Origin: an uncultured Oscillibacter sp. | GTDB lineage: Bacteria > Bacillota > Clostridia > Oscillospirales > Oscillospiraceae | Length of the DNA: 45,832 nt | NCBI GenBank assembly: GCA_949959305.1 | Contig: CATLJA010000006.1 | Location: 1-45,832, forward strand | Reading direction: 5' to 3' | Shown: positions 1,358 through 45,678 of the stretch, piece by piece | How positions within the stretch are numbered: position 1 is the stretch's first letter | How the letters are laid out: the number at the start of each line of letters is the position of its first letter | The notes under the pieces: generated by a model | What the model was told of the DNA's origin: nothing | Databases searched by the model: none | The model's input: the letters and a program-made list of their open reading frames with translations, nothing else | Position numbers and translations under genes: made by a program

Positions 1358-4045
1358 TTATTCCGCCGGCCTGTTCCGCCGGGCGTTCCGAGGAACCGGG
1401 CCCGGCCCCTGAGAGCGCTCCTTTTCCTGCTGGAGCTTGTCCAGCATTTTCTTGCGGAACTGGGAGATGTGCTCGATCTGGAGGCTGCTCATGTATTGGC
1501 CGTCCTCCGTAATGGTGCGGTAGAGGGCCTGGATTTTCTCCCGCTCCTCCGGGTGGGCCCGGCTGATATCCAGCATCTTGTTCCGGCAGCGGTACAGGTA
1601 GTTGCAGATGGCGTAGGCTGCCTGAAAGTCGATAAAACAGCTTGTACCGTCCGGGTTCGTCAGGGGCTCCTCTCCCTCCGGGGTCACGTTCCGCAAATCC
1701 TGGCGGGCGTTCTTCCGGAACTCCCGGCAGTAAGCGGCAATCCAGCGGGACAGCGCCTCCGCGCCCTCCTCCGGCCCGCCCTCACAGAGGAACATGTCCG
1801 GCCCGCCGCCGGAGTAGTAGGAGACCATGATGACCAGCGCCATGCGCTGGATGACGACGGCCTTTTGAAACTGCTCCTGCCCCTCCCGGTTTTTCCGGGC
1901 CAGCTCCCCCTTGGGAAGGGGGTTTTCCATGGACAGGTAGATGTGATTGGTGAGGCTGAAATAGTCCTGCTCCGTCAAATCCAGAAGCTGAATCATGGCG
2001 ATGTCCGCGTAGCACTCCCGCAGCAGCATTTCAACCTCAATCAGGGTGGAGGCCGCCGTCTCCACGCCGTCCCGCTCCCGCTGGAGCCGGTAGCGCTCTA
2101 TAGCGCCGTCCAGCCATTGGAGCTTGGCCGCCTTATCCTGCGGCCTCCCGCCGGAGGAGATAGGACAGCCGGGCTCCTGCGCGGCGGCGCGGAGAAGCTG
2201 GTAAATGAACTCCTCGTTCCGGAACACCATGCGGCAGGACTTTTGCAGGGCGGGGGTCAGGTCCGCCATGATGAAGTAATCTGTATCCGGGCCCTTATGC
2301 TTCAGAAGGGTTTTTTGAAGCCTGAGGGCCAGGGCCCGCTGCCCCCGGCGGCTGTGCTGGATGCCCAGAAGCTGGCAGAGGAGGTAGGCGCAGATATTCA
2401 CGGCGGCGTCCCGGCGCTCCTTGCGGAAGCGGGCCGTCTCGCCGCTGAAATGGGCGATTTCGTGGACCAGCACCCGCACAATCAGGCCGGGGTCGCAGCA
2501 GCTTTCCAGAGGGATGCTCACATAGAGCAGGTAGGCGGGGCTGCCCTCCTTGTGGATCAGGTTTTTGATGCTGATTTTATTTTGCAGGGCAGGCACAATG
2601 GAGAAATAGAACCGGCGCTGCTCCGCGTCCTCCATCTGGAGGTAGTCCGCGCACAGGTCCACAAAGGCCAGGTCCAGCTCCATGACGGAGGCGGGGATGT
2701 GAAACAGCAGGGGCCGGGTCTCCGGGTGGTGGATGAGCTGGCTTTCCATGCGGATCATGTGCTCGGTGAGATAGGCCATGCCGTCCACATAGATTTGAAC
2801 GCCGGGCAGCAGGGGCGCGCCGCCGGGCAGCTTCTCCAAAAGGCCGTGGAAGCCGTCCAGAAGGACGTAGCAGAGCTGGTTGAGCATGCAGTTTTCGCTG
2901 ACGGATTCCAGGGTGCTGAGAATCTGGAGGAGAGGCCGGAACCAGTTGGGCTCCTGCTCCCAGTTCTGCCCTTCCTTCCAGTTCAGCAGGCCCTCGCGAA
3001 GGTAGTGGTACGCCTCCCGCAGGCGCTTGGCCCCTCCGGAGGGCGGGCCCGCCTGGGCCCCCTCTCCGTTTTCCCGGCTGGCGCCCTGGGGGTTCTCCCC
3101 CGCGTTTTTCTGAGCGCCGCCCTGGGGCTCCGCTTCTGCATTTTCCCGGGCATTGCCCGGAGAATTGCTGAACCGCTTTCCCAGGCGGGTGGTCATGTCG
3201 TCAAAGAGCTCCCATAGGCCGCTGTCCAGAATCACGCCCCGCAGAAGCTGGACCAGCCCCCGGGAGGTGATGCCCAGCACCAGGAGGTTCACGTCCTCGG
3301 TGCCGGTGACGAAAAAGCTGTCGTTCTCCGACAGCCGCCGCCCGTCCACCTCCAGCGCTTCCCAGGCCCTCACCTGGGCCCGGGCCTGTTCCATGCTGCC
3401 CTTGACGGCGAAGCGCAGGGACGCAAGGCCGATGGGATCGCTGGCGTCCGCCAGGTCCTCCCCGCCGAGCAGGGCGGCCTGGGAAATACAGAAGCAGGTG
3501 TAAGCGTCTCCCACGGCGGAGTGGTCGGAAAGCTGCTCCAGCAATTCCAGCAGCCGGGGGACGGAGCGGGATTTGCCCAGCAGAATCAGGTCGCTGAGCT
3601 CCAGGGTCTTGGCGTAATAATAGGGAATGTCCGGGTACTGCTTCAGAATCTCCCCCAGGGCGGCTTCCAAATCATCGGTGCCCGCGTCCTCCCTGGCGAC
3701 GGCGTGCAGCCGGGTGAACATCAGGAAGGGCGCTTCCTCCCCCCGGAACCCGGCGAAGCCCCCCGGCCCCCCGTTTTGAAACTGGGAGAGCCCCCCCGCC
3801 TTCCCGTCCAGCAGGTAGGTGGAGTGGCGGTAGGGCGGCGGATCCGCCGGATCGCCGGAGGGAGGCTGGCGGCACACGTCCTCCCAGATGGCGCTCAGGG
3901 CGGAGCCGGAGCAGGGCGGCTCGTCCAGGGTGAGGGTGTCGAAGTGGCCCAGGACCAGCCACTCGTCCGGGCGGGTGAAGGTAGGAAGGCCGGCCCTTCT
4001 GGGCTTTCGGTACATATTGACGGCCTGCATGGCCTGTGTGCTCAT
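1358..4045 (-). CDS. Large uncharacterised protein with a zincin-like HEIAH site
   Basis: This 895-residue protein belongs to no family I recognise. The main signature is HEIAH at residues 528-532 (VHEIAHFSGE), a zinc-peptidase HExxH motif, with RECYAD at 676-681 about 145 residues later in the form ExxAD, which often supplies the third zinc ligand in gluzincins. Residues 293-340 are a polar Asn/Gln/Gly/Glu-rich linker that separates an N-terminal half from the half carrying the HEIAH site. There is no signal peptide or TM segment. The start at 4045 has a good GGAGG site. Its ATG overlaps the stop of the upstream membrane protein (ATGA), so the two are translationally coupled and probably work together. 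Peptidase activity is inferred from the motif alone. Confidence 0.7.
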   Translation of the reverse strand: MSTQAMQAVNMYRKPRRAGLPTFTRPDEWLVLGHFDTLTLDEPPCSGSALSAIWEDVCRQPPSGDPADPPPYRHSTYLLDGKAGGLSQFQNGGPGGFAGFRGEEAPFLMFTRLHAVAREDAGTDDLEAALGEILKQYPDIPYYYAKTLELSDLILLGKSRSVPRLLELLEQLSDHSAVGDAYTCFCISQAALLGGEDLADASDPIGLASLRFAVKGSMEQARAQVRAWEALEVDGRRLSENDSFFVTGTEDVNLLVLGITSRGLVQLLRGVILDSGLWELFDDMTTRLGKRFSNSPGNARENAEAEPQGGAQKNAGENPQGASRENGEGAQAGPPSGGAKRLREAYHYLREGLLNWKEGQNWEQEPNWFRPLLQILSTLESVSENCMLNQLCYVLLDGFHGLLEKLPGGAPLLPGVQIYVDGMAYLTEHMIRMESQLIHHPETRPLLFHIPASVMELDLAFVDLCADYLQMEDAEQRRFYFSIVPALQNKISIKNLIHKEGSPAYLLYVSIPLESCCDPGLIVRVLVHEIAHFSGETARFRKERRDAAVNICAYLLCQLLGIQHSRRGQRALALRLQKTLLKHKGPDTDYFIMADLTPALQKSCRMVFRNEEFIYQLLRAAAQEPGCPISSGGRPQDKAAKLQWLDGAIERYRLQRERDGVETAASTLIEVEMLLRECYADIAMIQLLDLTEQDYFSLTNHIYLSMENPLPKGELARKNREGQEQFQKAVVIQRMALVIMVSYYSGGGPDMFLCEGGPEEGAEALSRWIAAYCREFRKNARQDLRNVTPEGEEPLTNPDGTSCFIDFQAAYAICNYLYRCRNKMLDISRAHPEEREKIQALYRTITEDGQYMSSLQIEHISQFRKKMLDKLQQEKERSQGPGPVPRNARRNRPAE

Positions 4046-34216: not shown

Positions 34217-34849
34217 CTATGCTTCCTTGGGAATGTGGCGCACCACCCTGCCGCAGTCCACGTGGGTGCCCTCCGGCAGGACGGCGCAGCGCTCAATGGT
34301 GGCGGCGCTGGAGATGATGCAGCCCGGGCCGATTTCCGCCCCGCTGCCCACGGCGGCCCGGGCGCAGACCACCGTTCCATAGCCCAGAACCGCGCTGGGG
34401 GACACAGTGGCGTCCGGATGGACCAGCACCGGCAGGACAAACCCCGCCCGAGCCAGCTCCCCCAGCCAGCGCATCCGCAGGGCCCGCTCCCCCACCGCCG
34501 GGATGGCCACCGGGAATTCCTCCGCCCAGCGCTCCAGGTTGGAGCAGGGCCCCAGCGTTTCCGTCTTCCCCGTGTCGTCGTCCAAAAAGGCGATCCGCCG
34601 GAACACGTTCAGCCGCTGGGCCAGCTCCCGCACCTCCTGGCCGTGGCTGCCCGCCCCTAAAATCAGCAGGTTCAGCTCCCGCACCCGGATATTCCGGCGG
34701 AGAACCTCCTCCCGCTTTGCCGCCGCCTCCTCATAGCTCCTGCCGTAGCAGCAGCCGTACAGCAACCGGCCCTCCGGGCTCCGGCCCTTGGGGTAGCGGG
34801 CCTCAAAGCGCCCGTCCGCGCGTTTTCTGATATTGTCGCCTTGGCGCAT
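34217..34849 (-). CDS. PglD-like acetyltransferase with integrase-arm-like N-terminus
   Basis: This 210-residue protein appears to be a fusion. Residues 1-52 (GDNIRKRADGRFEARYPKGR, then YGRSYEEAAAKREEVL) look like the arm-type DNA-binding domain at the N-terminus of tyrosine recombinases. Residues 58-210 resemble PglD: LLILGAGSHGQEVRELAQ for UDP-sugar binding and hexapeptide turns from 144. Where C. jejuni PglD has the catalytic IEHEC, this protein has IERCA, so the His is absent, and the beta-helix stops about 50 residues early. The ATG at 34849 follows GGAGGG at 7 nt. As first gene after the locus promoter, it could be a regulator as much as an enzyme. Confidence 0.7.
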   Translation of the reverse strand: MRQGDNIRKRADGRFEARYPKGRSPEGRLLYGCCYGRSYEEAAAKREEVLRRNIRVRELNLLILGAGSHGQEVRELAQRLNVFRRIAFLDDDTGKTETLGPCSNLERWAEEFPVAIPAVGERALRMRWLGELARAGFVLPVLVHPDATVSPSAVLGYGTVVCARAAVGSGAEIGPGCIISSAATIERCAVLPEGTHVDCGRVVRHIPKEA

Positions 34850-37754: not shown

Positions 37755-40517
37755 TTAGTAGTCCATTCTCCAGTAGATAGCAGTGACCTCGAAGTCGCTG
37801 TTGTAGGACAGAGCCACGTAGTCATAGCGGACGCCGATGTCGCCCTTGCTGATGCCCTTCCAGGTGCTCTCAACAATACGGGTGTTGGTGGCATTGCCGT
37901 CCACACGGTAGAACTTGCAGCCGTCAGCCAGGTCGTAGGTATCGCCGCCATCGACCTCGATGGTCTCGCCGGTAACCTTATCAACGCTGGTAGCAACGAC
38001 ATAGCCCTTGCCGTCAGCGGCGATCTCGTCGGCCATGTCGGCCTCATACAGACCGTCCTCAATGCTGAAGGTGCTCAGGGTGACGTTGGTGCCGCCCAGC
38101 AGCTGGGCAATGACGCTCTGGGTCTTGGTGTCGTTCCAATTCAGCTTGATGCGGTTGTTGATGGTGCCGTCCACAACGCCCTTGAAGGCATAGTACTCGT
38201 TGCTGCCGTCGCTGCTGAGCTTCTGGTTGGTGTTGGCAACCAGGAACAGGTCGGTGTTGGTGCGGTTGCTCACATCCAGAGTAGTAGAATCGCTGGCGTC
38301 AACATACAGGAACTTGGCATAGGTCTGGTTGGCGCGGGTCATGGCGCTGTACAGGATCTTGCCGGAGCCAGTGCCGTCCTGCTTGCCGTCCACACTGGTG
38401 ATCTCAGGCAGGTTCTTCACGCCCTCGTACACCTTAAAGGTGTCGGCCTTGGTCTTCACGATGATGACGGTAGCGCTGTTGACACGGACAGTGTTGCTGT
38501 CAAGCTCGACGTTGCTGGCAGCCTTAGCGCTGGTATCGCCGATCTTGAAGTTGTTGGTGCCTTCGCTAGCGCGGTCAGCATCCTCATGGGTGTTGCTGTT
38601 CATCATGTTGGTGCAGGTCTTGCCGTCCGTGGTATTCACAGAGGGCTTGGTCAGCGTGTAGCGGCCGTTGGCGTTCTCGCGGTAGGTGACCCACTGACCA
38701 ATCCAGCAGGTATCGCTGCCGCCGGCATGGCTGGCGCTGTTGCTGTTGCCGTAGAGCTTATCGGTGCTGACAACCTTGGTGGTGCCGTCGGCAAACAGGA
38801 GCTCAGCCTCGTAGGTGTTGCGGCCCACGGCGCTGCGAACGCCGGCGTCCAGAACCAGAGCAAAGTTCTTGTTGTTGTCCTTGCCCTCGTTGAAGTACAG
38901 GACGTTGCCCTGCTTGTCGAGGTAAGCGGTGATGCTGGTGCGGATATCCTCGCTCTTAACCTTCTGGGTAGCCATCTTGCTGTACTTGTACTCGGTGGAG
39001 CCCAGGGTGAAGCTCTCCTGGTCGGTGTAATCCTTGACCTCGCCCTCAACGGTCTCGGCCTTGGCCAGCTTCTTCACGGAAGCCTTCGAGCCATCCAGCT
39101 TGTAGGCATAGTTGAAGGTCACGATGTCGCCAACATCGAACTTGTCGGTGTCGAAGGTATCGCCGTACTTGTCGCCATCCAGGAACTTGCCGGTCATGGC
39201 GCTGATGGTAGTGGCATCCTCCCAGTCGTCGCCCACGGGAGCGATCTCGACGTTGGCGGCGTGCTTGCCCTCGGCGGCGTTGACGGAGACAACCTCGCCG
39301 ACGTAGGTGTTGATCACCACGATGGTGCCAGCCACCTTCTGGGTGCCGCTCTTGAAGGCCTCAATGGTGCAGCCGGCGCCGGTGCCGATGCGCTCGCTGT
39401 CGGCGATGCTGTTGTCGTCGATAGCCAGAATCATGTCCGCGGCATAGGTCCTGCCACTGCTGTCTTCATTATCCAGGTCACTCAGCCAGTCGGGACCCTC
39501 GTCCTCATAGTCGGTACCAGCACCCAAGGTGTAGAAGTTCTGGGGAGCAGCGCCGTCGATGTACACAGCAAACTCCTTGGTGGTGGAGGTCAGGTTCAGG
39601 TCGTCGTACAGGTCGGCCATGGTGACATAGCCCTCATAGCTGACGTCGGCGGTATCGGTGTAAGAGCCGATCTTGTCGCCCTTCCAGGTCCACATGTGCT
39701 CGGGACGGCCGAAGCTGTCGCGCTCGCCGCTGTTCAGGATCAGGCGGGGGAAGTGCTCCTCGGCGAACTCAATGTAGCCGCCGCTGGAGATGTTGCCGTC
39801 GTTGCGGTCGGTGGTGGTGCCGGTGACAGTGGTGTCATAGGTGCGGTAGGTGGCGTTGCTGGCCTTCTGGCTGATCTCAACGCCGCCGACAACGATGGTG
39901 CTGCCGGGGACCTTGTACTCCACGGTCCGGGACTTCAGGGTGTTGAAGGCGTAGAGGCAGGCCTCCTCACGGGTGACAGCCTTGGAGCCGACAAAGTCGT
40001 CCTCCAGGTCTTTGTCCAGGCCGACGCCGTTCACCAGCTTGGCAACCTGGATGCTCCAGTTGGCGCCGGACAGGCCCTCGTTGGCGGAGTCATAACCCAG
40101 AGCGCCCAGCAGCATCTTCATGAACGCATAGCCGGTCAGGGTAGCGCCGGGCTGGAAGGAGCCGTCGCCGTAGCCGCCGATGATGCCTTCCTTCGCGCAG
40201 TAGGCGATGTAGCCCGCGAACGTGCTGTTGGCGGGAACATCCTTAAAGGGAGCGGTGCTGGCCGTCAGGTTGCTGGCGGCAGCGGGGCCCAGGATCAGGT
40301 TGCAGATGATCTTGGAAGCGGCGCCGCGGGTCAGGGTCGCTTCGGGACGGAAGTCGCCGTCGGCATAACCGTCGACAACCCCGATGGTGGAAATCACGTC
40401 GATGGCCTCATCATAAGTGATGGAGTCCGCGTCCGTGAAGTCCTTGGCGCTGGCGCCCAGAACGGTCAGGGACATGACCATAACCAGAGCCATCACCAGA
40501 GAAAGGAACTTCTTCAT
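37755..40517 (-). CDS. SLH-domain S-layer-type surface protein
   Basis: This 920-residue secreted protein has a signal peptide ending around residue 24 (VMSLTVLGASA-KD) and three S-layer-homology domains in residues 25-205: DGYADGDFRPEATLTRGA, GGYGDGSFQPGATLTGYA and a more divergent third ending in AVTREEACLYAFNTL. The rest, 210-920, is a Thr/Asn/Asp-rich beta-structured region without known motifs. SLH domains bind pyruvylated cell-wall polysaccharide. Uniform codon use, a strong promoter, a long leader and a strong terminator suggest very high expression. GGAGG is 12 nt from the ATG, rather far. It lies next to the glycan locus, whose product may serve as its anchor or decorate it. Confidence 0.92.
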   Translation of the reverse strand: MKKFLSLVMALVMVMSLTVLGASAKDFTDADSITYDEAIDVISTIGVVDGYADGDFRPEATLTRGAASKIICNLILGPAAASNLTASTAPFKDVPANSTFAGYIAYCAKEGIIGGYGDGSFQPGATLTGYAFMKMLLGALGYDSANEGLSGANWSIQVAKLVNGVGLDKDLEDDFVGSKAVTREEACLYAFNTLKSRTVEYKVPGSTIVVGGVEISQKASNATYRTYDTTVTGTTTDRNDGNISSGGYIEFAEEHFPRLILNSGERDSFGRPEHMWTWKGDKIGSYTDTADVSYEGYVTMADLYDDLNLTSTTKEFAVYIDGAAPQNFYTLGAGTDYEDEGPDWLSDLDNEDSSGRTYAADMILAIDDNSIADSERIGTGAGCTIEAFKSGTQKVAGTIVVINTYVGEVVSVNAAEGKHAANVEIAPVGDDWEDATTISAMTGKFLDGDKYGDTFDTDKFDVGDIVTFNYAYKLDGSKASVKKLAKAETVEGEVKDYTDQESFTLGSTEYKYSKMATQKVKSEDIRTSITAYLDKQGNVLYFNEGKDNNKNFALVLDAGVRSAVGRNTYEAELLFADGTTKVVSTDKLYGNSNSASHAGGSDTCWIGQWVTYRENANGRYTLTKPSVNTTDGKTCTNMMNSNTHEDADRASEGTNNFKIGDTSAKAASNVELDSNTVRVNSATVIIVKTKADTFKVYEGVKNLPEITSVDGKQDGTGSGKILYSAMTRANQTYAKFLYVDASDSTTLDVSNRTNTDLFLVANTNQKLSSDGSNEYYAFKGVVDGTINNRIKLNWNDTKTQSVIAQLLGGTNVTLSTFSIEDGLYEADMADEIAADGKGYVVATSVDKVTGETIEVDGGDTYDLADGCKFYRVDGNATNTRIVESTWKGISKGDIGVRYDYVALSYNSDFEVTAIYWRMDY

Positions 40518-40845: not shown

Positions 40846-40872
40846 GGCGCGGCCTCACGTGAGGCCTGTCCG
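40846..40872 (-). repeat. 27-bp inverted repeat bracketing the replication module, left copy
   Basis: It carries the perfect palindrome GGCCTCACGTGAGGCC flanked by CGGACA on one side and CGCGCC on the other (minus-strand reading). It matches 44593-44619 in inverted orientation at 26 of 27 positions. It lies 10 bp past the stop codon of the primase-helicase gene. Confidence 0.8.
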
Positions 40873-40882
40873 GGCGGAAGCC

Positions 40883-42700
40883 TCACCGCCCCTCCTCGAA
40901 GCAGGAGAACGCCGGGTAGTACCGCAGCGGCGAGGGGTCCCCCAGGGCGGCGGAGCGGTTTTTCAAAATTTTCAGCTCCAGCTCCCGGGGATCCTTTTTC
41001 TTTTCTTCCTCCAAATTGAAGTCCCGGCCTCCCGCCCCCCGGGCCTGGAGGCCCAGCAGCACGTCCGCCGAGTAGTCGATGCCGCCGGACTCCTTGAACG
41101 CCGCCATGGTGGCGGAGGCGTTGTAGTTCTCTCTATTAAAAGAGGAGATGGCCAGCACCGTCAGCCCCCGGCTCCGGGAGAGCTTTTTCAGGGCGCAGAC
41201 CGCCCGGTCCAGGTTCTGCTTATCGGTGAAATGCACGTCGGCGGGGGCGATAATCTGGAGGTAGTCCAGGAAGACCACAGGCTTCCGCCCCGTCTCGGCG
41301 ATATGCCGCTCCACGCCCCTGCGGATGTCCTCCAGGCCCGTCTCGTGGTCCCCCTCTACAATCCAAATCCGCTCCGCCAGCTCCGCGTAACGCCGCTGGG
41401 CCGCCTCCAGGTGGGCGGCCTCCTCCGGCGCGGCCTTCTTCCTCCGCCGGGGGTCCAGCACCCCCCGGACCGTTTTCGACAGGGTCCGGCCCCGGCTGGC
41501 GTCGGTCTGGAAGGTGATGCGGGAGATGGAGCGGGCCATCAGCTCGAAGGCGCTCATTTCCAAGGTGAAGACCAGCACGTCCGTTCCGGCGGCGGCCAGC
41601 TGGTCCGCAAGCTGCATGCAGAAGGCCGTCTTGCCCAGGGAGCTCACCGCCCCCAGGACGTAAAGCCCCTCGTAAAGCCCGCCGTCCAGGGCCCGGTCCA
41701 GGCCGGGGAAGCCCGTGGGCCGGGGGGGCGGCGCGCGCCGGATGTGCTCCAGCAGGGCGGGCATGCGCCCGGCGGCGGAAAGGCTTTCATAGGGCGGGTG
41801 GGCGTTCTCCCAGGCCCTGACGCAGTCCGCCAGGAAGGCCCCGGCGGCGGCCCGGTCCGCCAGGAGGAATTCGTTTAAATCCTTCCCCTGGGGGAGGGGC
41901 GGGCACCGGCTCAGCCAGGGGAGCTCCTCCAGCAGGGCGGAGGCCCACGCCTCCCCCGGGCCGTCGCTGTCCGGCAGGACCAGCACCGGGCCGGGCGGCT
42001 CCAGCTCCCGCAGGATGGCGGCGGCCTTCTCCCGGTTCCCGGCCCCGTTCAGCGCGGCGGCGGGGAAGCCCAGTTCTTCGGCGCTGAGGGCGTCGAAGGT
42101 CCCCTCCGTCAGGAAGACGGGGCGGTCCTCCCGCAGCAGCTCCGGCTGGAACAGGGGCGAGGGCGCGCCCTTTTCGTTGAGGTAGCGCTTTTCGTCCACG
42201 CTCCGCCGGACGGCCCGCCCCCCCTCGCAAGGGAGCACCACGCAGCGGCGGGCCGGGTCGTAGCCCAGGCCGAACCGCAGGACGGTTTCCGGGGACAGGC
42301 CCCGCCGGGCGAAGTAGTCGGTTTTGTCCGCGTGGGCGGCGCAGTCCTCCAGGTAGGACGGGGACGGCGGGGGCGCGGCGCTTTCGGGAGGCTTCCGCTT
42401 CGGAGCGGCCCGCTTCCGCCCCTCCGGCTCCACGGTTCCCGTGCCGTAGCGGCGGCTGGCCTCCGCCAGGGCCTCCCGGGGGGAGGGGAGGTTTTCGTCC
42501 ATGGCCAGGAGGTCGAACAGGTCGTAATCCGCCCCGCAGGCAAAGCAGTGGACCTTGTGCCGGCGGGAATCGTAGCCCATGGAGGGGTTCCGGTCCAAGT
42601 GCTCCGGATTCAGGCAGCGGAAACGCTTGGCGGGGTTGATCCCCCGCTCCCGGAGGTAGTCCGCCAGGCGGGGGCGGAGGGAGTAAAAGGTGTCGGGCAT
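40883..42700 (-). CDS. Plasmid/phage-type primase-helicase
   Basis: This 605-residue protein joins a primase and a DnaB-type helicase, as in phage T7 gp4. A CHC2-like zinc finger is at 29-55 (Cys29, His34, Cys52, Cys55). The TOPRIM primase core has TEGTFDALS at 198-206 with Glu199 and LPDSDGPGEA at 242-251 with Asp244 and Asp246. The helicase has Walker A AVSSLGKTAF at 351-360, an LEMSAFELMAR motif near 380, and Walker B VVFLDYLQ with Asp479. The start at 42700 follows AAAGGAGG; the longer frame upstream runs through the origin. It lies downstream of iterons and an initiator-like gene, the organisation of a plasmid replicon. Confidence 0.88.
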   Translation of the reverse strand: MPDTFYSLRPRLADYLRERGINPAKRFRCLNPEHLDRNPSMGYDSRRHKVHCFACGADYDLFDLLAMDENLPSPREALAEASRRYGTGTVEPEGRKRAAPKRKPPESAAPPPSPSYLEDCAAHADKTDYFARRGLSPETVLRFGLGYDPARRCVVLPCEGGRAVRRSVDEKRYLNEKGAPSPLFQPELLREDRPVFLTEGTFDALSAEELGFPAAALNGAGNREKAAAILRELEPPGPVLVLPDSDGPGEAWASALLEELPWLSRCPPLPQGKDLNEFLLADRAAAGAFLADCVRAWENAHPPYESLSAAGRMPALLEHIRRAPPPRPTGFPGLDRALDGGLYEGLYVLGAVSSLGKTAFCMQLADQLAAAGTDVLVFTLEMSAFELMARSISRITFQTDASRGRTLSKTVRGVLDPRRRKKAAPEEAAHLEAAQRRYAELAERIWIVEGDHETGLEDIRRGVERHIAETGRKPVVFLDYLQIIAPADVHFTDKQNLDRAVCALKKLSRSRGLTVLAISSFNRENYNASATMAAFKESGGIDYSADVLLGLQARGAGGRDFNLEEEKKKDPRELELKILKNRSAALGDPSPLRYYPAFSCFEEGR

Positions 42701-42915
42701 GGCGGGGCCTCCTTTCAAAAAGAAGGGCTTGCGGCGGACGAAGGAGCCGCGAAGCCCGTAAGATATCTTAATATATCTATAAGGGGCGGGAGACGCTTTT
42801 GGGCGGGCTTGAAAAAGATGGCGGCAATTCTGGAAATTCCGGCGGAAATTTCCGTTTTGACGGTTTAAAGGTTGGAAAAACCGGGAAGAATGCCAGGGGC
42901 GGATTCTTCCCTTCT

Positions 42916-42996
42916 GCACGGGCCCGGGTCGGAGGAGCACGGGTTGAAGTCGGCTTTGCACGAAACCGGGTGTGGTTCTGCACGGGTTGAAGTCGG
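42916..42996 (+). repeat. Four iterons with 21-22 bp period
   Basis: Units start at 42916, 42937, 42958 and 42980. The second and fourth are identical, GCACGGGTTGAAGTCGG; the first (GCACGGGCCCGGGTCGG) and third (GCACGAAACCGGGTGTGG) share the GCACG start and the G-rich end. Spacings of 21, 21 and 22 bp put the units on the same face of the helix, as expected for initiator-binding iterons. Confidence 0.75.
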
Positions 42997-43021
42997 AACC
43001 GGACGGCGGACGGAGGGCGGC

Positions 43022-43134
43022 TGTGGAAAGAAACGCGGCGGTTTTCCACATTCGAGGCGGTTTTTACTCTCGGACCGCCGCGTTTGGGGCGGGGAGCGCC
43101 GTTTCTGTGGAAAAGGTCCGGCGGGCTTTCCACG
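43022..43134. promoter_or_regulatory. Cluster of four DnaA-box-like sites
   Basis: TTTTCCACA occurs at 43042-43050 (plus) and 43106-43114 (minus), CTTTCCACA at 43022-43030 (minus) and CTTTCCACG at 43126-43134 (plus). The first two differ from the TTATCCACA consensus at one position. The alternating orientation and closeness to iterons suggest host DnaA helps at this origin. Confidence 0.55.
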
Positions 43135-43192
43135 AGAGCCGGTGACAGCCATGACGGGCTTCCGGGAAGTCAGACCTGGATTCGTGCGGGGG

Positions 43193-44458
43193 TCATTCCT
43201 CCGGGGGCTCCGCCTGGGCGGGCAGCCTTTTCCGCTTTGCCTCGGAGGGCTTGACGGGCTTGTCCAGCTTTTTGACGTAGCCGTTGACGGCCTCGTCCAC
43301 TTGAACGGTCATCCGGGCGGCAAGGAAGGTGTTGATGTTGTCGTAGTCCAGCTCCAGCCGCAGGGAGTTGCCGGAGACGGCGGCGATTTCCTCCATAGCC
43401 TTCCGGAAGGGGCGGAGGATGGCCTCGTCGTAATTGCGGTTTTTGACCTCCTCCTTGGTGGGAAGGCCGATGTAGCGGATGATGTCCTCCACCCGGACGC
43501 GGAAGGTGCCGTCCTCCGCCAGGGGGGCCTTGCGGGCCCGGTAGAATAAGTAGAAGGCCATGCGGTAGGCGTTTTCCCCCAGGTGGCCCATCCAGTCGGG
43601 AATGAGCTGGTAGTACTGGGTCAGGAAGTGGCGCACGTTCTCGGCGAAGGCGATGCGGACCTCTCCGGTGTATTTTTTGATGCTGGCCTCCGTGGCGAGA
43701 TGGGTGATGTAGAAGGATTCAAAGTATTTTTTGAAGGACTCCGCCGTCAGCTTCATGCCCGTGATGGACTGCACGTCCTTCTTCAGCTGGCGGTAGGCCG
43801 CGTCCCGGGATTTCAGCCCCGCCCAGTCCATGTATTCCTTGATGTTGAATACGGCGGAGTTGTTCCTCCAGTTCTGGCTGTTGCCCTGCATGAGGGTGTA
43901 TATGAGGAGGCGGTGGGCCGTCCAGCTGAGATTCCGGGTGTACTCCTGCACCGCCTCGAAAATCAGGGTCATCTCGTAGTCCTTGTTCCGGTAGCGGATG
44001 TTCTGGTTTCCGTAGGCGTCCGGCTCCGAGTAGGTGACGGTGATTCCGTTGGAGGCGGGGTGGAACTCCCGGCCCCGCTTCATGTTGGCCCACACGCCGC
44101 AGATGAAGTAGGTGGCGGGGCTGTTGCCCAGCACGTCGTACTCCGTGGCCTTGGCGGTGAGGTTCTCCTCAAAGACCGCCAGCAGCGCCGCGGCCAGGGC
44201 CTCCGCGTCCGGGTCCCCTCCGGCGGCGGCCTCCGGCAGGCGCTCCGGCCCCCCGTGGGCCTCGAAAAAGCTGTCCAGCAGGGGGTAAATCTGCTGGAAG
44301 TCGTATTGGGCCAGCTGGCGCTTGAAGGCGGCGGGCTTCTTCTCCTGGAGGGGCTTCAGGCGGCGGTAGGTCTGGAGCATCTCCTGGAACTGGTCGCTTT
44401 CCAGGAAGCGCAGCGGCGCGTCCTTCAGCGCCTCCAGGGATTCCGGCGATTGGGTCAT
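43193..44458 (-). CDS. Replication initiator-like protein
   Basis: This 421-residue protein has central and C-terminal winged-helix-like regions: NLSWTAHRLLIYTLMQ, then NIKEYMDWAGLKSRDAAYRQ, and VEDIIRYIGLPTKEEVKN later on, a pattern like Rep_3/RepA plasmid initiators, which bind iterons with two winged helices. The N-terminal 130 residues are helical and unassigned. The ATG at 44458 follows AAAGGAGG with the same GCCC-GCC spacer as the helicase gene, suggesting a common origin for the two. The iterons lie directly downstream. Family assignment is by pattern, so moderate; the context of iterons and a primase-helicase supports it. Confidence 0.7.
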   Translation of the reverse strand: MTQSPESLEALKDAPLRFLESDQFQEMLQTYRRLKPLQEKKPAAFKRQLAQYDFQQIYPLLDSFFEAHGGPERLPEAAAGGDPDAEALAAALLAVFEENLTAKATEYDVLGNSPATYFICGVWANMKRGREFHPASNGITVTYSEPDAYGNQNIRYRNKDYEMTLIFEAVQEYTRNLSWTAHRLLIYTLMQGNSQNWRNNSAVFNIKEYMDWAGLKSRDAAYRQLKKDVQSITGMKLTAESFKKYFESFYITHLATEASIKKYTGEVRIAFAENVRHFLTQYYQLIPDWMGHLGENAYRMAFYLFYRARKAPLAEDGTFRVRVEDIIRYIGLPTKEEVKNRNYDEAILRPFRKAMEEIAAVSGNSLRLELDYDNINTFLAARMTVQVDEAVNGYVKKLDKPVKPSEAKRKRLPAQAEPPEE

Positions 44459-44526
44459 GGCAGGGCCTCCTTTGGCGGGCGGGGTGGTTTTGGAAATGGA
44501 AAAGCTGCATGGAAAGTTTGATATGA

Positions 44527-44535
44527 AGTATAGCA
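44527..44535 (-). promoter_or_regulatory. Extended -10 promoter of the initiator-like gene
   Basis: TGCTATACT on the minus strand is a good extended -10 element about 70 nt before the ATG at 44458. No good -35 is present (TTTCCT at 17 bp). Confidence 0.6.
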
Positions 44536-44592
44536 TAAAAGGGGGAAAAAGGAAAGGGAAAGTTTTCGGGCGGGCGCTTCGGGCGGAGAGGC

Positions 44593-44619
44593 CGGACAAG
44601 CCTCACGTGAGGCCGCGCC
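44593..44619 (+). repeat. 27-bp inverted repeat bracketing the replication module, right copy
   Basis: CGGACAAGCCTCACGTGAGG followed by CCGCGCC. It is the inverted partner of 40846-40872 with one mismatch. It lies between the Mor-like gene (stop at 44637) and the initiator-like gene. GGGCGGAG and CTCCGCCC arms outside it can extend the hairpin. Confidence 0.8.
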
Positions 44620-44636: not shown

Positions 44637-44912
44637 TCAGCTCCTGGTCCCGCTGAGAATTTTCCGAATCTGCCGCTCGCTGAGGCCGAAGCGGATTCCC
44701 AGCGCCCGGAAGTTTCCCCCGTCGAACCGGGCCCGGATGTCCCGGTCCCGGGCCTCCCGCTCCAGGGACTCCGTTTTGGGGATGTAGAGGCTCTGCCCGC
44801 CCCGCAGGCGGGTGAGCCGGAGGAAGCCGTCCAGCCCCAGGCTGTCCGCCAGGTCCCGGTATTCCGCTGGAACGTCCTCCGGGAGAATGGAGTGAAAAAA
44901 CGTGCCGCTCAT
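44637..44912 (-). CDS. Mor-family small transcription regulator
   Basis: This 91-residue protein has the whole Mor pattern: LPEDVPAEYRDLADSLGLDGF at the start, GGQSLYIPKTE in the middle (the dimer strand), RDIRARFDGGN and a C-terminal helix-turn-helix ALGIRFGLSERQIRKIL at about 69-86. Mor proteins activate middle genes in Mu-like phages; small stand-alone versions are common in Firmicutes. The ATG follows AAAGGAGC at 6 nt, and TATAAT at 44939-44934 is a likely -10. It might control the replication module directly downstream. Confidence 0.85.
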   Translation of the reverse strand: MSGTFFHSILPEDVPAEYRDLADSLGLDGFLRLTRLRGGQSLYIPKTESLEREARDRDIRARFDGGNFRALGIRFGLSERQIRKILSGTRS

Positions 44913-45207: not shown

Positions 45208-45678
45208 ATGTTTGGCGAAAGTGCGTTTGGAAACTTGGCGGCGGTGTTTTTCATGTCCATGGTCCCGGTGGTGGAGCTGCGGGGGGCCATCCCCTTCGGC
45301 ATTGCCGCGGGGCTTCCGGCGTGGGAGGTGTACTGCGCCGCCGTGCTGGGGAACCTGGTTCCGGTTCCCTTTATATTTCTTCTGCTGCGGCATGTGTTCG
45401 CCCTGCTGCGGCGGGTTCCCTGGCTGGGGGAAAAGGTGGACTGGCTGGAGCGCCGGGCCCATTTGAAGGGCCGGACCGTGCGGAAGTACCGCCTTTTGGG
45501 GCTGGTGCTGTTGGTGGCGGTGCCCCTGCCGGGGACCGGGGCCTGGACCGGAGCCCTGGTGGCCGACGTGCTGGACATCCGGGCCAGGACGGCCCTCCCC
45601 GCCATCGCCATTGGAGTGCTGGTTGCCGGGGCGCTGGTAATTGCCGCCTCCTGCGGCGTGGCGGAGCTGTTTTTCTGA
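45208..45678 (+). CDS. COG2426/Sm_multidrug_ex small membrane protein
   Basis: This protein of about 156 residues has four or five TM helices and the family signature VPVVELRGAIPFGIAAGLP near the start, then VPVPFIFLL, a KYRLLGLVLLVAVPLPGTGAW block and a small-residue final helix. The family is annotated as putative small multidrug export protein, but its function is not established. The ATG at 45208 is preferred; a TTG at 45163 would be almost leaderless. A GGAG site lies 30 nt before the ATG, separated by a CGGGCC/GGCCCG hairpin that may bring it closer. It is the only plus-strand gene here. Confidence 0.85.
   Translation: MFGESAFGNLAAVFFMSMVPVVELRGAIPFGIAAGLPAWEVYCAAVLGNLVPVPFIFLLLRHVFALLRRVPWLGEKVDWLERRAHLKGRTVRKYRLLGLVLLVAVPLPGTGAWTGALVADVLDIRARTALPAIAIGVLVAGALVIAASCGVAELFF

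Follow-up and report, generated by a model that had tools for sequence, protein, structure and literature searches.

The described systems that come closest to the locus considered here include the iteron plasmids with a Rep_3 initiator, the secondary replicons of the Burkholderiales and repABC kinds, and mycobacterial prophages that are maintained extrachromosomally. Secondary replicons have partition sites of their own: in the portion of the Burkholderiales study consulted (PMC5450999), the chromosomal parS is TGTTTCACGTGAAACA, and the secondary replicons have 16-nucleotide (nt) palindromes of their own with a central CG. Here, we focus on positions 40846-44619 of a 45,832-nt contig (C6) from an uncultured Oscillibacter sp., where genes for a replication initiator (rep) and a fused primase-helicase (pri) lie between two palindromes. 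The whole of this contig was analysed and is termed the window; it belongs to a genome in 163 contigs that is 79.5% complete with 5.5% contamination. Genome counts refer to a comparison set of 86 genomes of the genus, and strain MSJ-31 serves as a comparison genome outside the 86.

Our favoured reading, held with confidence somewhat above even, is that a low-copy theta-type plasmid, present in some gut bacteria of the Oscillibacter group and equipped with a ParABS partition system of its own, has its replication core at 40846-44619. The sequences show the protein families, the iterons and the palindromes; they also show that Rep and ParB are distributed alike, that the genes are under purifying selection and that one relative is probably circular. 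From these we infer low copy number, autonomous replication, protein binding and a free state of the window's copy. In the proposed mechanism, the Rep_3 initiator would bind the iterons between rep and pri and open the origin, and the plasmid's own primase-helicase would load and prime the fork. A replicon-specific ParA/ParB pair, encoded here on contig C7, would then segregate the copies by way of variant parS palindromes (core CTCACGTGAG) on either side of rep-pri, and the S-layer and surface-glycan genes would be cargo of the replicon.

The replication core and its origin region

A Pfam profile search matches the initiator to Rep3_N PF01051 (E-value 3.5e-12; 47.3 bits against a cut-off of 22.4), hence the WH1 initiator domain is present, and the initiator-like protein of an initial annotation of this DNA can be assigned to the Rep_3 type. 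A comparison of the family profile with PDB sequences, made with a view to a second winged-helix domain of Rep, gave no match. The fusion of primase and helicase named in the same annotation also stands, with matches to DnaB_C (1.7e-26) and Toprim_2 (1.3e-8); the CHC2 zinc finger falls under its cut-off. Relatives of the primase-helicase occur in 48 of 72,556 plasmid records, with a coverage of at least 80% in six. Within the primase gene of one relative, G094, ARAGORN places a tRNA-Arg (acg) at L018:2309-2390; the open reading frame (ORF) of this gene is 706 amino acids (aa) long, against ~605-623 aa in the others compared.

Four phased iteron units lie in the rep-pri intergenic region, at 42915-42932, 42936-42953, 42957-42974 (degenerate) and 42979-42996, bearing out the four 21-22 bp iterons that had been annotated. 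Three units in the window match at least 12 of the 18 consensus positions, against a mean of 0.27 and a largest value of 3 in 200 shuffles; as the consensus was derived from the window itself, recurrence across regions is better evidence than this test. All ten rep-pri intergenic regions compared, nine of them in relatives, have 2-4 matches spaced at 21-22 nt or approximate multiples of it (the L031 region has one additional overlapping match, and one of the ten is truncated by the end of its record). Left out of the comparisons was L029, where rep is broken by the contig end and pri has no match, and L021, which ends within rep, was left out of the iteron comparison. The remaining origin elements of the annotation are less secure. 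For its DnaA-box-like sites there are two 9-mers, and the support is weak because the degenerate box pattern is found in just five of the ten regions; its AT-rich tract is a weak candidate for an unwinding element.

In the closest pair of genomes, G029 and G007, the ratio of non-synonymous to synonymous polymorphism (pN/pS) lies at 0.095-0.117 for rep, pri, parA and parB, and this purifying selection argues that the genes are still functional.

Co-distribution of Rep with a partition system

The initial annotation held that finding the same genes at the same place in all relatives would speak against a plasmid-type replicon; this pattern is not seen, as Rep was found in 7 of the 86 genomes. 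A close ParB (75-100% identity) occurs in the same seven, the next-best ParB being 33% identical, and some distant ParB match is present in all 86. The hypergeometric probability of this co-occurrence is 1.9e-10 under an assumption of independent genomes, which genomes are not. Rep and ParB are encoded on one contig in four of the seven genomes, 13-35 kb apart, and likewise in strain MSJ-31. ParA adjoins ParB and matches AAA_31 (1.4e-44 for the G086 protein), and ParB matches the structures of Spo0J and Noc. Scores for the TIGR00180 ParB domain, which has a cut-off of 58.45 bits, are 65.9 in MSJ-31, 57.6 in G086 and 47.9 for C7 of the window's genome, where parAB stands alongside carbon-metabolism genes such as citE.

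Boundary palindromes and a variant parS-like motif

The ends of the interval, 40846 and 44619, are those of two inverted repeats of 28 nt each, 96% complementary and absent from the initial annotation, and each repeat includes the palindrome CTCACGTGAG. At no more than one mismatch, the 15-mer GGCCTCACGTGAGGC, present in each repeat, has four strand matches in the window, where 0.12 are expected, and no further copy in the rest of the window's genome; at two mismatches, this genome has three more matches and the control seven. The longer pattern GGACARNNCTCACGTGAG gives 23 strand matches at 21 places in nine of the 86 genomes, including all seven that carry rep, and none with the reversed control. 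Within these seven, the ten-letter core is found at 27 places, 21 of them on rep contigs, against one for the reversed control. A genome-wide repeat can be rejected, as the motif occupies just two places in the window's genome at no more than one mismatch.

Six relatives' loci carry the core 1-5 times each, near rep, mor, terL and tail genes, and in G029 five sites extend over ~11 kb around rep. An exact match to the ten-letter core selected 37 sites, from which a flanking half-site RHCTCAC was derived; around it the arms of the two sides vary separately, and by our own count 27 of the sites have GGACA in one or both arms. Canonical parS, at no more than one mismatch, is present in 82 of the 86 genomes, all seven with rep included. 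Its 14-letter core is missing from nine rep-bearing sequences, all of which have the variant, and the variant core is present on all eight contigs with rep from Oscillibacter-group genomes, as well as on the Butyricicoccus contig compared. The inner TCACGTGA is common to chromosomal parS and the window-type motif. Taken at the level of sequence, the palindromes are most likely variant parS sites of the replicon's own partition system, which its ParB would be expected to bind.

Some copies of the core lie in other settings. The rep-negative genomes G005 and G084 have CTCACGTGAG cores at L189:2694-2748 and L190:2604-4048, with two 45 nt apart in each and with different arms; these are possibly sites of another element. 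Two sites in G020 (L012:9725 and L012:12839) flank an MBOAT gene and its neighbour, near a decayed phage region.

A probable circular relative

Contig ends were tested for overlap in nine cases and one, G086:C20, was positive: its two terminal stretches of 122 nt, flush with both ends, are identical at 117 positions. Closing this contig in silico produces a 497-aa flippase ORF, of which aa 4-485 align with a flippase of G066 at 28% identity. G086:C20 carries rep, pri, parAB, an S-layer-homology (SLH) gene, a capD-type gene, a sugar dehydrogenase, a DegT aminotransferase and an O-antigen ligase, and its sequence indicates that it is probably a circular plasmid of ~44 kb with a surface locus.

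The initial annotation left a choice between a large plasmid or chromid with a surface-glycan locus and a plasmid core integrated into the chromosome. The plasmid part of the first proposal fares well, given Rep and ParB in the same seven genomes, a parS-like family of the replicon's own and the overlapping ends in G086. A chromid is not supported: neither the window nor C7:4000-45657 has a tRNA, and no sole-copy core gene was identified, core genes having had no systematic screen; the glmS on G020:C129 is a second copy, and a glmM copy adjoining ParA in G029 is ambiguous and leaves some doubt. Among 25 loci of related contigs there is one tRNA, lying in a primase gene, and Rfam at gathering thresholds has no match anywhere in the window. 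We lean moderately towards a free plasmid for the window's own copy as well.

Surface-coat neighbours and phage genes

On one side of the core lies the SLH gene, as annotated; the other side has a Mor-family gene and a small export protein rather than simply ordinary genes (table 1). Several gene names in this account were given by eye, without a family call: capD in the window, the MurJ-type flippase, the glycosyltransferases, VanZ-like, Cas9, and recR and rpe of G021.

Table 1. Features of the rep-pri interval and its flanks (positions in the window).
Feature	Position	Strand	Remarks
S-layer-homology surface protein	37755..40517	-	Cargo side of the module
Left parS-like site	40846..40873		Core CTCACGTGAG at 40854-40863; directly after the primase stop codon; putative ParB binding
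Fused primase-helicase (zinc finger, Toprim, DnaB-type helicase)	40883..42700	-	605 aa; profile matches
Lowest-GC tract of origin region	42761..42800		Weak candidate unwinding element; 37.5% GC, the lowest 40-nt value
Four iteron units	42915..42996	-	21-22 nt phase; consensus CCGACTTCAACCCGTGCA; 2-4 consensus matches in 10/10 regions, window's included
DnaA-box-like 9-mer (weak)	43042..43050		Degenerate box pattern
DnaA-box-like 9-mer (weak)	43106..43114		Degenerate box pattern
Replication initiator, Rep_3 type	43193..44458	-	421 aa; Pfam Rep3_N PF01051
Right parS-like site	44592..44619		Core at 44602-44611; separates rep from the Mor-family gene; putative ParB binding
Mor-family transcription activator	44637..44912	-	Profile match; also adjoins rep in several phage-gene-bearing relatives
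Small multi-drug export protein	45208..45678	+	PF06695; also beside the phage capsid gene in some relatives

Of the eight named-contig loci with rep as well as pri, four (L022, L023, L025 and L026) contain a match to the SLH protein of the window. Next after rep-pri in four relatives (G029, G007, G094 and G075) come mor, terL and the genes for capsid and contractile tail (families assigned on the G093 copies), and several relatives have capsid or portal genes on the rep contig. The SLH gene of G093 adjoins mor with no rep-pri between them, an arrangement like that of an empty site. On G029:C77, G066:C39, G021:C110 and G093:C13 (covered by loci L100, L013, L099, L206, L098, L205, L210 and L066), the structural genes of a contractile-tailed phage form a cluster that is split by surface-glycan genes. 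In our reading, a plasmid backbone has recombined with a phage structural cluster and the host coat locus to give these arrangements. A far-reaching extension, which we regard as improbable, is that phage-derived Oscillibacter plasmids capture whole glycan/S-layer loci and shuttle them between chromosome and plasmid; portal and capsid genes would flank the cargo, and contractile-tailed particles could package coat loci and move them between strains, in effect a coat switch that moves itself and takes the host's own surface genes along.

Some further ORFs are of note. In the window, 34217-34849 (minus strand) encodes ~60 aa that by eye resemble an integrase arm-binding domain, fused to a PglD/hexapeptide acyltransferase. 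The same fusion is present in G086 (L019:12004-12654), and G020:C129:11069-11710 has a similar start (by eye). An integrase-like ORF of G029 (L013:4223-5407), with weak FtsK_gamma and MarR-type matches, lies between the SLH gene and the primase.

Alternative explanations

Several observations weigh against an independent plasmid. The window contig does not close on itself, and it has no exact end overlap of at least 15 nt with C7 from base 4000 on; in G086 the overlap includes five mismatches, whereas an overlap left by an assembler ought to be exact. In the window's genome, G007 and G029, parAB is on a contig separate from rep, and the window and C7 differ in G+C content (58.1% versus 64.2%). 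Rep has no match among the 72,556 plasmid records at an E-value of 1e-5. Six of the 27 core motifs of rep-bearing genomes are on contigs without rep, some with poor arms, and G093 and G022 (85% and 87% complete) have the motif without a close ParB. Across all 86 genomes, the ten-letter core occurs in 16, nearly as many as the 14 of its reversed control, so weight rests only on GGACARNNCTCACGTGAG and on the rep-bearing genomes. Finally, identities track those of chromosomal glmS (Spearman 0.76 for Rep, 0.55 for parB and 0.50 for pri; 21 pairs from seven genomes). Shared ancestry therefore accounts for part of the co-occurrence of Rep and ParB, and the replicon has either resided in close relatives or been exchanged between them. 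The glmM copy next to ParA in G029 (L142, G029:C22) could point to a chromosomal place; this type of glmM, ~43% identical to the usual one, is found in G007 on a 265-kb contig (L212, G007:C11).

The open window contig and the tracking of a chromosomal gene by Rep are also what would be seen if a rep-pri-parABS backbone were integrated in the chromosome, with the glycan and S-layer genes as its normal neighbours and with rep and par lost in some lineages. Such a locus can be chromosomal, since rep-negative G066 (71% complete) has a related glycan locus, together with phage genes, on the contig that carries recR, rpe, hrcA and dnaK; in G021 (77% complete) a similar locus adjoins genes that by eye resemble recR and rpe. 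There is precedent too: the consulted part of the Burkholderiales study describes an integrated plasmid that retained five parS repeats (PMC5450999). We nevertheless judge integration, the second alternative of the initial annotation, to be rather unlikely, as the G086 contig has overlapping ends, the capD-like gene lies away from recR in the window, G086 and MSJ-31 (by eye), and rep, pri and par are intact and under purifying selection. The readings overlap in part and their likelihoods are not meant to sum to one. This includes the proposal of a phage replication module, in which rep-pri would serve lysogeny or replication in a temperate phage or phage-plasmid and the window would hold a decayed piece of it. 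Besides the phage genes that neighbour rep and pri in four relatives, it can draw on a capsid gene (at least 73% identity) in nine of the 86 genomes, five of them with rep (30 of the 86 when distant matches are counted), on a close full-length portal match in seven with a fragment in G020, and on a 4,866-nt 'Bacteriophage sp.' record with both mor and rep. A virus-particle origin is not claimed for MT838800, as its accession prefix does not appear in the main text of PMC8361208. The window's genome itself keeps the Mor and export genes found in the relatives' phage region.

A phage origin is unlikely all the same: neither the window's genome, at its 79.5% completeness, nor G086, the best case for a circle, has any capsid or portal match, and four capsid-bearing genomes are without Rep and a close ParB. 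Stop codons interrupt the G020 capsid gene and the G093 portal gene, and a stretch of 19-34 kb with surface-glycan genes separates portal from capsid in G029, G066, G021 and, over the part retrieved, G093. The palindromes themselves might instead be operators, terminators or recombination sites, or the whole interval a transposon with terminal inverted repeats. Near-exact inverted repeats at both ends, several copies directly 3' of genes and the two G020 copies around MBOAT-type genes would suit such roles. We consider them quite unlikely, more so than a phage origin. Transposon ends were rejected, because the ORFs include no recognisable transposase and relatives have the palindrome at other places too, at 1-5 copies per locus in six loci; no target duplication was seen by eye. 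An RNA terminator is disfavoured by the separate variation of the two arms around the half-site, unlike an RNA stem (judged without a folding run). The presence of the motif in all seven genomes that have the close ParB also speaks against these roles.

Implications

Encounters of gut bacteria with phages and with the immune system are governed by the surface coat. The locus suggests, from its gene content and that of its relatives, that these bacteria can keep coat genes on a DNA circle that is separate and exchangeable; if this is true, a coat-carrying plasmid with its own partition system would explain how an exchange of coats could come about in this group. It would also offer a candidate origin and centromere for vectors in commensals that are hard to engineer, and a second natural case for testing how pairs of ParB and parS come to differ inside a single cell.

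Comparison with known systems

Literature searches found no publication on an Oscillibacter phage-plasmid; on Oscillibacter plasmids and S-layers, nothing on topic was returned, judged from titles and the beginnings of abstracts. Searches for CTCACGTGAG with ParB returned unrelated work only, and among the publications listed by further searches none concerned this element. With the Rep_3 iteron plasmids (PF01051), the locus shares an initiator domain above the curated cut-off and 21-22 nt iterons beside rep; it differs in a Rep without a match among the plasmid records, in a fused primase-helicase of its own and in its surface-coat neighbours. The primase-helicase matches those of Streptococcus, Limosilactobacillus and Anaerotruncus plasmids (e.g. 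NC_010859 and NZ_CP094683) over 91-99% of its length, but at 36-39% identity.

Extrachromosomal mycobacterial prophages, in the section of the account consulted (PMC7157519), combine a RepA-type initiator with parABS, as seen here, and phage structural genes are present in some relatives of the window. Their parS, in contrast, consists of short direct repeats, and the elements described here have glycan and S-layer neighbours and may be without phage genes altogether, as in G086. As far as the consulted parts of the Burkholderiales (PMC5450999) and repABC (PMC9040568) accounts go, the secondary replicons they describe likewise have their own ParABS and 16-nt central-CG palindromes apart from the chromosomal parS. 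The present element differs from them in its core sequence CTCACGTGAG, in the spread of its sites, with five over ~11 kb in G029, and in a parAB that lies 13-35 kb from rep where the two are on one contig.

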